NCBI GenBank assembly: GCA_026014585.1
Contig: JAOZIA010000024.1
Location: 248,001-312,000 of the forward strand
Direction of reading: 5' to 3'
Source: Candidatus Bathyarchaeota archaeon
GTDB taxonomy: Archaea > Thermoproteota > Bathyarchaeia > Bathyarchaeales > Bathycorpusculaceae
Length of the DNA stretch: 64,000 nucleotides
Position numbers and translations under genes: made by a program. How positions within the stretch are numbered: position 1 is the first letter of the stretch; each line of letters starts with the position of its first letter. This document shows, one piece after another, positions 4,811 to 8,258 of the stretch. Below the pieces are notes generated by a model. That model was not told where the DNA came from, ran no database searches, and saw only the letters and a program-made list of their open reading frames with translations.

Positions 4811-4844
4811 CACTCACACCATCAAACTGTACGGGTGAAAAGTA

Positions 4845-5678
4845 ATGAACACTATACCTACATGGGATAGAACAGAAATGCGCAAAAAGAGTTGCGCCCG
4901 ATTAATAGAAAAACACCTCTGCAATGGTGGCGGAGCCCAATACAAATTTAGCAGACTACACTTACCGGTATTATCTGACTACAACGTTGGCTACAACTAC
5001 TCTCCATCAAGACACATCGTTGGAACAAGTCAACCTGCTGTAGGTACAGTAGATGAAGCAATAGAAAATGTACGAATTGCAGCAAAAACTGACCCCCGCT
5101 TACGCATTGTGAGCATATATGGTCCAGGTGACCCATTAGCCACAGATGTCACCTTCAAAACGCTCCAGTTCGTTCAAGATGAGTACTCATACATGACACG
5201 ATGCGTCGGAACCAACGGGTTACTATTACCCAAAAAAGTAGAAGAATTACAAGAGGCTGGTGTAGCTGCACTAACCCTGACAATTAACGCTATTGACCCC
5301 GATATCGGTTCACAAATTTACTCCTACGTCCGCAAAAACGGCGAAACCTTACGAGGCAAAGAAGCCTTCGAAGAGCTGAGCATTAACCAGCTGGAAGGAT
5401 TACAAAACGCTGCCGAAGCAGGCATGATGGTTAAAGTAAAATCCGTCTATATCCCAGGCGTAAACTCTGAACATCTCATCGAGGTTGCAAAAATAGTTCG
5501 CCGCTTAGGAGCCTACATAATGAACATTACCCCAGTGGTGCCACAAGGCAAATTCGCAAACCTACCCACGCCCTCAATTCAAGAAGTAGAAGACCTCCGC
5601 AACATCTGCTCAAACATAATCTATCAATTCCACACTTGCGAACACTGCGGCGCTGACGTAATCGACGTACCTGACTAA
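4845..5678 (+). CDS. NifB-like radical-SAM-fold protein lacking the cluster cysteines
   Basis: The 277-residue sequence follows NifB (FeMo-cofactor maturase) along its length: FSRLHLPV, the GPGDPLA SAM-site motif (93-99), TNGLLLP, INAIDPDIG, SVYIPGVNSEH and IMNITPVVP. The canonical CxxxCxxC that binds the radical-SAM 4Fe-4S cluster is replaced, at identical spacing, by Y46-x3-Y50-x2-S53, and the next NifB cysteine is V59. Residues that hold the substrate clusters in NifB look preserved: H24-x-C26, C120 in TRCVGTNG, and C265-x2-C268 near the C-terminus. It therefore probably cannot cleave SAM reductively but may still bind Fe-S clusters, for example as a carrier or scaffold; that is inference. 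No nifHDK genes are nearby. A HAD-like gene and fwdBD follow. Confidence 0.85.
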   Translation: MNTIPTWDRTEMRKKSCARLIEKHLCNGGGAQYKFSRLHLPVLSDYNVGYNYSPSRHIVGTSQPAVGTVDEAIENVRIAAKTDPRLRIVSIYGPGDPLATDVTFKTLQFVQDEYSYMTRCVGTNGLLLPKKVEELQEAGVAALTLTINAIDPDIGSQIYSYVRKNGETLRGKEAFEELSINQLEGLQNAAEAGMMVKVKSVYIPGVNSEHLIEVAKIVRRLGAYIMNITPVVPQGKFANLPTPSIQEVEDLRNICSNIIYQFHTCEHCGADVIDVPD

Positions 5679-5697: not shown

Positions 5698-5793
5698 ACC
5701 CCTCTAATTTTTGTGTGCACCACTTTTCCATCGTTTATTTTACAAAAGGTCTAATTAGGTTAGGTTTATCCTTGCATACAAGTGACTGTTGTC

Positions 5794-6264
5794 ATGTTGG
5801 AGATTGATATTGCAGGGTTTGGACGTTTGCAATTGAATTTTCTGGTTTCAGATTTTAATGGAACCTTAGCCTTAGATGGTAAGTTGCCTCTTGAAGTTAA
5901 ACAAAAACTAAACGCCTTATCCAAGCACCTAAAACTATACGTGTTAACCTCCGACGAATTCGGATTAGCCAAACAGGAACTCGCAGACGTCAATTGTGAA
6001 CTGCACATTTTAGAAGAAAAAGACATGGTGGCTCAAAAAGCAGATTTTGTTGTTGCGTTGGGCGCTGAGCATGTGGTGGCTTTTGGCAACGGAATGAACG
6101 ACAGAGACATGCTCAAAGCTGCGAGGCTCGGCGTGATTATTTTAGGCAGAGAAGGCTGCTCGGTGCAAAGTTTGCTTGCTGCGGATGTGCAGGTGCCCAG
6201 CATTTTGGATGGTTTGGATTTGCTGTTGTGCCCTAAACGGTTGCGGGCAACACTAAAATTCTAA
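5794..6264 (+). CDS. Soluble HAD-like phosphatase related to P-type ATPase catalytic domain
   Basis: A 156-residue HAD-superfamily protein of the small soluble P-type-ATPase-like group (COG4087 type). HAD motif I is VSDFNGTLALDG with the nucleophile at D20, the TSD motif II lies near residue 50, and motif III/IV is GNGMNDRDMLKAA at about residues 105-117. There are no membrane segments, so it resembles a stand-alone P-domain. The ATG at 5794 is preferred over the GTG at 5782, because GTGA at 5782-5785 then serves as a ribosome site and homologues begin with IEI-like residues. It follows the NifB-like gene on the same strand after 115 bases and converges with fwdB. Substrate unknown. Confidence 0.75.
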   Translation: MLEIDIAGFGRLQLNFLVSDFNGTLALDGKLPLEVKQKLNALSKHLKLYVLTSDEFGLAKQELADVNCELHILEEKDMVAQKADFVVALGAEHVVAFGNGMNDRDMLKAARLGVIILGREGCSVQSLLAADVQVPSILDGLDLLLCPKRLRATLKF

Positions 6265-6276
6265 GAAAGTAAGTGG

Positions 6277-7836
6277 TTAAGCGGGCACTTTTTTGGTTGC
6301 CCGTTTTTTAGTTGGTGCTTTTGGTTTTGTTTTTTCTGCTTTGTCTAAGGATTGTTTTAGTTTTGTTACAGCCTTCTTGGGGATTCCTGCTTTTTCAGCC
6401 TTAATCAACCTGATTTCTGCGAGGATTTTTTGAAGAATCTCCTCATCATTTGGCACGCCTTGCGGTGGGTCCACAACCTTTTTCACCATAATTGGCACGT
6501 GGTCCATGCGGTATGCTGTGCCCTCGTATTCGATGCCGCACCACTGTGTTGGAAACACGACATCGCCGAGTCTTGAGGTGCAGTTCCAGTCAGGGTTGAT
6601 GACGATTAAGGGATGCTCCATCATTTTCTTCAATGATGGCTTAGGGAAGTGCGCACCTGGGTCAGAGCCAATAACTAGAGTTGCGTCATTATCACCGTTC
6701 TTTAGCAAGTCAATAGTTGAGAACTCACCTGGATTATATTGAGGGTAACCTTGAGAGAAGTCCATCGCATACGGATAACCTGTTCGCCAAGTAAAAGCCA
6801 CGTTTGCTCCTGTAATGTTGAAGTGTCCCCTCATAGGCATGATGACGAATTTTGTTTTCTTGTTAAGGTCGCGGGTTAGTTTGACTGCAACTTCGATGTT
6901 TCGGAATCTGCCTGCGCTCGCGGTTAAGCCCAACCCGAAAAATATCGCGCCAAAATTGCAGTTCACCATTGCATCGGCGACATCTTTTAAGTACTCAACT
7001 GGAACGCCACCTACCTTGTCCACGTCCAATTCTTGGTCGTTAATTAGGCAGCGTAGAGCTTGGAATATTTCGTAGTCCTTGTTAGGTTGGACCTGTACAA
7101 AATAGTCTGCTGCTTCTGCTGTCATGGTTTTGATGGGGTCAAACACAATCAGTTTACGACCTTCCTTTTGAATGGACTGCGGTGGCGCATTTACAGTGCA
7201 TACGTTTGGAGGAATTGGGGGTCTGTGCTGGGCTATGAGCCTGCGGGATGCCGCCTCAACTTTTTTGCGGCTGGTTCCCCCTTTCAGCTTTTCCATGTAA
7301 CTGTTCCATTCGCTTCGCTCAAAGCGTCCCTCGGGAAAGGCGGTGTAGCGTTCAACGTGGCGAGGGTGTGAAGCCCAAGGATTGCTGCCCCAATAAATTA
7401 TTAGGTCAGCACGGTGCCGTACCTGCCCAAGGGTACAACCGGGAATACCTGCTTCTTGAACACCCATCATAGAAGGACCATGACAAATACTACAAACATT
7501 ATCTAAGGCGCAGCCCAATTCTTCTGCCATTTCCACGCCAATGCCCTGAACTTCACCTGTACAGCATTCCCAGCCGAACAACAAGGGATATTTAGCGTCC
7601 GTTAGAATTTGAGCTGCTTTGTGCACGGCTTCATCCAGTGATACTGGAACGAGTTTGCCATCTTTGCGTATGTGAGGCTCCATGATACGTTCTTCTTTGT
7701 AACCGTGAACCATTTTAGCTTCGCATACGGCACACCCGTTTTTCATTTTTACAATTTCATTGTTTTTCACGGTTACTTCTAGGTCATCACAGAGGCAACC
7801 GCAGATTGGACAAACAACAGATTTTACAATGGTCAT
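6277..7836 (-). CDS. fwdB: Formylmethanofuran dehydrogenase subunit B (catalytic)
   Basis: This is the molybdopterin-binding catalytic subunit, which reduces CO2 to formate in the first step of the archaeal methyl branch; FwdA then attaches the formyl group to the C1 carrier. The N-terminal 4Fe-4S site is CPICGCLCDD (C9, C12, C16) with C35. The metal-ligand motif is VCSICHGPS with C118, encoded by TGT, so this is the cysteine rather than the selenocysteine form. It is longer (519 residues) than the roughly 430 usual: there is an insertion of about 45 residues after HPRHVERYTAFPEG (about 170-215) and a Lys/Ala/Pro-rich C-terminal tail of about 40. It overlaps fwdD by 4 bases (ATGA). Confidence 0.93.
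   Translation of the reverse strand: MTIVKSVVCPICGCLCDDLEVTVKNNEIVKMKNGCAVCEAKMVHGYKEERIMEPHIRKDGKLVPVSLDEAVHKAAQILTDAKYPLLFGWECCTGEVQGIGVEMAEELGCALDNVCSICHGPSMMGVQEAGIPGCTLGQVRHRADLIIYWGSNPWASHPRHVERYTAFPEGRFERSEWNSYMEKLKGGTSRKKVEAASRRLIAQHRPPIPPNVCTVNAPPQSIQKEGRKLIVFDPIKTMTAEAADYFVQVQPNKDYEIFQALRCLINDQELDVDKVGGVPVEYLKDVADAMVNCNFGAIFFGLGLTASAGRFRNIEVAVKLTRDLNKKTKFVIMPMRGHFNITGANVAFTWRTGYPYAMDFSQGYPQYNPGEFSTIDLLKNGDNDATLVIGSDPGAHFPKPSLKKMMEHPLIVINPDWNCTSRLGDVVFPTQWCGIEYEGTAYRMDHVPIMVKKVVDPPQGVPNDEEILQKILAEIRLIKAEKAGIPKKAVTKLKQSLDKAEKTKPKAPTKKRATKKVPA
6282..6309 (+). terminator. Hairpin with T6 after the HAD gene, inside the fwdB 3' end
   Basis: A perfect 6-bp stem CGGGCA/TGCCCG with a 10-base loop is followed by six T residues, 18 bases after the HAD stop codon. 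It overlaps the last codons of the convergent fwdB gene, where it encodes part of the basic tail. Confidence 0.5.
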
Positions 7837-8243
7837 GGCATTTCCTTTCCGTATTCTTCTTTTAGAAGCTCGTTTACAGTCAAGATGGGCTCGTCTTTTG
7901 CGGGTTCAACTTCAACGGGAAAGCCTTTGAAGAGCGGCATGCCCATGCTATAGGTGTCATCGCCACAGACGACGTTTGCCCATAGTCCGCAGGGCATAAA
8001 AATTAGTCCAGGATGTGCACCTCGGGGGAACTCTTCAGCTTTTACTATGACTGAGCCAAATCTGGAGGTTACTTGTACGTTACGGTTGCTTCTGATGCCG
8101 AGTTTAATTAGGTCTGTTTTATCTAGGTAACAGATTGCGGCTGTGTCAAAATATCGTTGGGTGCCTTTGCCCATTTCTTTGCCTACACCCTGATCTATTG
8201 TGCGCCCAGTGATTAGGGTAAGTTTTAGTTTTTTAGCCATCAT
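7833..8243 (-). CDS. fwdD: Formylmethanofuran dehydrogenase subunit D
   Basis: A 136-residue molybdopterin-dinucleotide-binding subunit that caps the FwdB active site. It shows the FwdD pattern: TLITGRTIDQG at the N-terminus, YFDTAAICYLDKTDLIKLGI, then VKAEEFPRGAHPGLIFMPCG, and GMPLFKGFPVEVEPA near the end. Start choice is uncertain among GTG 8252, ATG 8243 and ATG 8240; GTGAGAGG at 8252-8245 looks like the ribosome site, which favours one of the two ATGs. It is the first gene of the fwdDB pair, and its promoter region carries a tandem AT-rich operator-like repeat. FwdA and FwdC are not in the window. Confidence 0.9.
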   Translation of the reverse strand: MMAKKLKLTLITGRTIDQGVGKEMGKGTQRYFDTAAICYLDKTDLIKLGIRSNRNVQVTSRFGSVIVKAEEFPRGAHPGLIFMPCGLWANVVCGDDTYSMGMPLFKGFPVEVEPAKDEPILTVNELLKEEYGKEMP

Positions 8244-8258
8244 GCCTCTCACGAGCGC

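Follow-up and report, generated by a model that had tools for sequence, protein, structure and literature searches.

What does a NifB do once the cysteines of its radical-SAM centre are gone? The question is raised by a gene at 4845..5678 (+) of the window, by which we mean the whole 64,000-nucleotide stretch analysed here (C23:248001-312000 of a 2.3-Mb Bathyarchaeial genome, on a contig of 577 kb). The gene is an intact open reading frame with an ATG start, and it encodes a NifB-derived paralogue of 277 aa without the radical-SAM cysteines. A ribosome-binding site, GGGTGA (4833..4838, +), can be read directly in the sequence 6 bases before the ATG. On all these points, coordinates and frame included, the first-pass annotation of the locus was accurate.

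An extra NifB beside a canonical nif operon

The same annotation called the protein NifB-like from end to end. The likeness does extend over residues 12 to 276 or so, but just 39 of the 59 near-invariant NifB columns are kept, and 9 of the 20 changes fall within residues 46-65. The NifB model TIGR01290 matches residues 17-273 with an E of 2.3e-55; the score of 188 bits is below the curated cut-off of 343.65, as is that of the canonical NifB of the same genome (302 bits). The NifBs of known structure (7jmb, 7bi7, 7jma and 6y1x) match the protein with E values of ~1e-56. In the Pfam scan, the radical SAM fold PF04055 is the single match (39.8 bits against a cut-off of 29.5, residues 63-216), and the NifX domain PF02579 is absent.

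An AlphaFold2 model built with 40 homologues as input predicts an ordered fold with high confidence (mean pLDDT 88.5, pTM 0.87), the regions of low confidence being a remodelled loop at residues 57-61 and the C-terminal tail. The five best PDB matches of the model are all NifB, with 6y1x at a TM of 0.83/0.91 and an rmsd of 1.7, so the predicted fold is that of NifB. An earlier study of NifB removed “NifB” entries lacking CxxxCxxC, most of which it took for misnamed NifX (PMC5715403). Such mislabelling is ruled out here by the missing NifX domain and the retained NifB fold.

Just before window position 1 lies a nifH-nifB-nifD-nifK-nifV-like operon (C23:240819-246552; L040:10820-16553). The window gene starts about 6 kb past the end of this operon, which places the canonical NifB, NifH, NifDK and NifV-like genes 6-12 kb upstream of it. 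The operon NifH and the nitrogenase component I alpha subunit score above the cut-offs of TIGR01287 and TIGR01862, respectively, the operon NifB is canonical with its CxxxCxxC intact, and the remaining genes encode a NifK/VnfK-like beta subunit and a homocitrate/isopropylmalate-synthase-like protein. The archaeon is probably nitrogen-fixing. Because the operon supplies a separate canonical NifB, the window protein is a diverged, additional paralogue and not the NifB of the organism, and the idea that it is the organism's only NifB can be dismissed. The genome has just two Oxidored_nitro proteins, the DK pair, and NifEN is therefore absent. A NifEN-less HBDK system of this kind, from Chloroflexi, has been reported to build FeMo-co, with the cofactor maturing on NifDK (PMC11573651).

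The same gene order, nifV-like gene included, is seen in five other genomes (G018, G019, G031, G058 and G062). The nifHBDK loci of Bathy-6 have been published (PMC11697101), and the present genome resembles them in having an HBDK operon with a canonical NifB, here followed by the nifV-like gene; the window paralogue differs as an extra gene outside the operon. In the passages of that paper considered here the loci are named nifHBDK and a nifV-like fifth gene goes unmentioned; in the paper as a whole, the word nifB occurs only within the operon name. A second nifV/isopropylmalate-synthase-like gene of our genome (L155:13013-14242; C23:223013-224242) is 77% identical to one near the NifB paralogue of a related genome, G026. 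A functional link between the paralogue and the nifV-like gene near the G026 copy was considered and dropped, as an orthologue of that gene is found at a different place in this genome. On the other side of the window gene are a small HAD-like protein (5782-6264, +) and, beyond it, genes for formylmethanofuran dehydrogenase subunit B and an FwdD-like protein (6277-8252, -).

Two metal sites with different fates

The metal sites were compared across 96 aligned homologues, 91 of which (two of them repeat entries of the same gene) fall outside the divergent paralogue clade described below. All 91 keep the three cysteines of the radical-SAM triad. In the window protein the Cx3Cx2C columns are occupied exactly by Y46-x3-Y50-x2-S53 (4980..5003, +; codons TAC, TAC and TCT), as had been noted at first reading, and the three ligand positions for the SAM-cleaving [4Fe-4S] cluster hold no cysteine at all. 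The plug loop that follows is remodelled throughout residues 54-65 (5004..5039, +), with the loss of both the fourth radical-SAM cysteine and the glutamate ligand of K1. The former had been placed at V59; the cysteine is indeed lost, but its column (C62 of Methanotrix, Mt) falls on I58 or V59 according to where the gap is placed. The glutamate, Mt E65, is replaced by T61. The SAM-site motif GPGDPLA (residues 93-99; 5121..5141, +) is present as first described, with the preceding alanine changed to tyrosine. Loss of the radical-SAM site is thus well supported by the triad columns, and a protein with these residues cannot be expected to work as a radical SAM enzyme, nor, on the same grounds, to perform the function of NifB. 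As the ligands of the radical-SAM cluster are absent, synthesis of NifB-co (8Fe-9S-C) by SAM-dependent carbide insertion is not expected.

The K site has fared differently. According to the review whose numbering we follow (PMC9692996), Mt NifB binds K1 through C29, H42, C128 and E65 and K2 through C273/C276, with C62 as the fourth radical-SAM ligand, and the residues holding the 8Fe K cluster in Methanothermobacter (Mth) NifB are C18, H31, C115, C260 and C263. The window protein keeps all five of the corresponding Cys/His ligands: C26 (4920..4922, +; Mt C29, Mth C18), H39 (4959..4961, +; Mt H42, Mth H31), C120 (5202..5204, +; Mt C128, Mth C115) and the pair C265-x2-C268 (5637..5648, +; Mt C273/C276, Mth C260/C263). 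The first-pass annotation had the cysteines right, but it counted H24 as a ligand; H24 is the conserved histidine of the HPC motif, and the ligand histidine is H39.

The surroundings of the site are conserved in part. Among six fingerprint motifs listed for NifB (PMC5715403), TxTxN is present in full as T144-L-T146-I-N148 (residues 144-148; 5274..5288, +), a motif lost in the sister paralogues, as is K197, which is kept here and missing from all three sisters. Two more are found in part: HPC reads HLC, with the ligand cysteine kept and the proline lost, and AGPG reads YGPG, with GPG kept and the alanine lost. The other three no longer match, namely Cx3Cx2C with its Y46/Y50/S53, ExRP, which reads TSQP, and Cx2CRxDAxG, which reads CEHCGADVID and retains both cysteines and the aspartate but not R269, A272 or G274. 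Set against the archaeal stand-alone NifBs, which are radical SAM carbide synthases (6Y1X, 7BI7, 7JMB), the window protein shares the fold (TM 0.79-0.85 by query, with ~36-38% of residues identical in the structure alignment), the K ligands, TxTxN and GPG; it differs in lacking the radical-SAM ligands and the plug-loop Cys/Glu, in the changed residue before GPG, and in a C-terminal motif cut down to CxxC and Asp.

How much should be made of the retained ligands? Outside the loop, conserved sites are kept at a general rate of about 37/48, and the chance of keeping five out of five is then ~0.27, so ligand retention alone is weak evidence. A hypergeometric p of 0.0014 for the exact loss of the triad with the K ligands kept deserves little weight, being computed post hoc and including columns that are not changed in all four paralogues. 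These figures argue only weakly that the K site has been deliberately maintained.

Relatives and selection

A search of 257 genomes of the class returned 17 NifB-type loci in 16 genomes. Divergent NifB paralogues were found among them only in the genus of this genome, where they comprise the window gene and one gene each in G026, G030 and G028. Those relatives that could be named are bog and sediment MAGs of Candidatus Bathyarchaeota. The four paralogues group together, nested within the Bathyarchaeial nif-type NifBs, with a support of 95/93. When the tree is built without the radical-SAM loop and the C-terminus, the group holds at 89/91, which makes the sequence-based grouping of the window gene with its three sisters likely, though not certain. 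The AU test speaks against an origin by duplication of the NifB that the genome has today, though without rejecting it (p 0.07). A search of viral contigs found no homologues.

The sister paralogues (L009, L011 and L010 in G026, G028 and G030) also share a broad chromosomal neighbourhood with the window gene, but in their metal sites they show the opposite pattern. The G026 paralogue keeps the triad and has lost C26, H39 and the C-terminal CxxC; the triad reads S-C-C in G030 and C-S-C in G028, and both of these have lost K ligands as well. At first reading, support had been sought in a conserved clade lacking the cysteines, and changes confined to this genome had been named as evidence against. 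No such clade was found, since the other members keep two or three radical-SAM cysteines and have lost K ligands. The exact Y/Y/S form is known from one genome, which speaks in part against the first reading; a divergent paralogue clade does exist.

Canonical NifB and Oxidored_nitro proteins are absent from G026, G028 and G030. Judged by the orthology of their flanking genes, the paralogues and several nif operons lie in a common broad region of the chromosome. This suggests an ancestral nif region, where the operon was later lost in some lineages and the paralogue in others. In the same family, five further genomes carry the same operon but not the window gene, and the gene is therefore not required. 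Several other features of these genomes can be recorded here. The paralogues of G026, G030 and G028 (L047, L048, L049) are divergently paired with a gene for an M3-family oligopeptidase, and genes for aldehyde:ferredoxin oxidoreductase and ferredoxin lie close by. A 720-aa NifH-like/NifD-like fusion is encoded at L190:2397-5877 (G013:C22), with similar proteins in G009-G012, G022, G025, G032 and G035; next to it are encoded a NifK-like protein and, together with substrate-binding proteins, an ABC importer. Canonical NifB is absent from these genomes.

Is the window gene simply decaying? In a codon model run on eleven sequences, dN/dS was 0.115 on the window-gene branch, as compared with 0.08 in canonical NifBs and 0.22 in the sister paralogues; the values are rough because synonymous sites are saturated on these branches. 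The window branch rejects a dN/dS of 1 (p about 1e-6), as do the sisters (p 4e-28). The window-gene branch is under purifying selection, in agreement with the earlier view that the gene is not decaying, and a pseudogene can be rejected on the codon-model tests; since the test averages over the branch, it is compatible with a very recent loss of function. A functionless duplicate in decay, or an artefact of assembly, would account for a form seen in one genome and would fit the faster evolution of the sister branches. We consider it very improbable, given the rejection of neutrality, a frame still intact at about 45-50% protein divergence, the ordered fold predicted with high confidence and the position of the gene within a 577-kb contig. 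A sequencing or assembly artefact is rejected also in view of the remodelled loop and long branch that accompany the triad changes.

The main rival to a cluster-binding role emerges from the same comparisons. The clade may have taken up a function that uses the NifB fold and neither metal site, for example as a binding or regulatory protein, with the window member simply retaining its K ligands. Each of the four members has lost a different set of ligands, as a set they reject neutral evolution, and three of them have survived in genomes that lack canonical NifB and nitrogenase alike. Against this, the K site of the window protein is complete, even at positions that the sisters lost together, and a free Cys/His site would be expected to erode over so long a branch. 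On balance we regard a cluster-independent role as unlikely, though it has to be taken seriously.

A possible cluster carrier

The K cluster, a pair of [4Fe-4S] units, is converted into the 8Fe L-cluster, NifB-co, and NifB can hold this product after making it (PMC13245594). We propose that a K- or L-type cluster would bind in the old NifB pocket of the window protein, would undergo no radical chemistry there, and would be held, carried or scaffolded on its way from canonical NifB to NifDK. This account of a non-NifB paralogue is a tentative one, to which we give somewhat less than an even chance; a helper that holds the K/L-cluster in a NifEN-less nitrogenase system is nonetheless the most likely role we infer. 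Two points lead us to favour it: of the four paralogues, only the one whose genome retains the nif operon has an intact K pocket, and NifB is known to hold its 8Fe product. The broader evolutionary claim, that a NifEN-less archaeal nitrogenase assembly has evolved a pseudo-radical-SAM metallocluster carrier from a NifB that gave up its radical-SAM centre but not its K/L pocket, is possible but more doubtful.

Several observations count in favour of the carrier. C26, H39, C120, C265 and C268 are kept and the triad and plug loop lost; TxTxN and K197 are kept here and lost in the three sisters from genomes without canonical NifB or Oxidored_nitro proteins; the branch dN/dS is close to that of canonical NifB, and the predicted fold is NifB's; and the canonical operon lies 6-12 kb upstream in a genome without NifEN, for which published HBDK maturation offers a precedent (PMC11573651). 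On the other side, the five family genomes do without the gene, the contrast with the sisters amounts to one evolutionary comparison, and R269, A272 and G274 have been lost. Moreover, a different contig encodes two neighbouring proteins with a NifX domain (PF02579; L188, L189; G000:C22:48026-48703), which are possible cofactor carriers and could already do the carrying. NifX and NafY resemble the window protein in the proposed role alone, that of holding NifB-co or FeMo-co for transfer; their domain is unrelated. We put the carrier role forward with reserve because the argument from K-site retention is weak and the Y/Y/S form comes from one genome. The first-pass annotation had likewise suggested conversion into an Fe-S carrier, scaffold or partner: the radical-SAM site is gone, the K ligands are kept and the gene is constrained, while the conversion would be a further step beyond these facts.

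Two other roles can be imagined for the retained ligands and fold. The protein may be an ordinary [4Fe-4S] protein or Fe-S store, with one or two clusters at K1/K2 serving electron transfer, storage, or iron or redox sensing and no trafficking of NifB-co. The ligands suit two [4Fe-4S] clusters, and a dispensable store would agree with the five operon-bearing genomes that lack the gene; we think it improbable, as the pocket of NifB is a specialised one that fits the K pair, and the neighbouring genes show no link to such a role. Less probable again is a pseudoenzyme subunit, a regulatory or structural partner that would bind canonical NifB or its donors and carry no cluster. Pseudoenzyme partners are common in other protein families, and the two genes lie in the same genome within about 10 kb of each other. 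However, we know of no solved NifB that needs a second subunit, and the sister paralogues have no canonical NifB to pair with.

A text search of the open-licence literature found no description of a NifB paralogue that lacks the radical-SAM cysteines and keeps the K site, in line with the first-pass remark that no family with this combination had been described, although a search of this scope cannot prove that none exists. Were the carrier reading true, it would show how a cluster-making enzyme can itself give rise to an assembly scaffold, and the minimal nifHBDK systems would gain an unexpected part, of interest for the engineering of nitrogen fixation. Biochemists would also gain a “radical-dead” NifB made by nature, and could study in it how the K cluster is bound without turnover. 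If the window protein is merely a drifting paralogue, the genus still holds a NifB-derived group in which two metal sites have been lost in opposite combinations.
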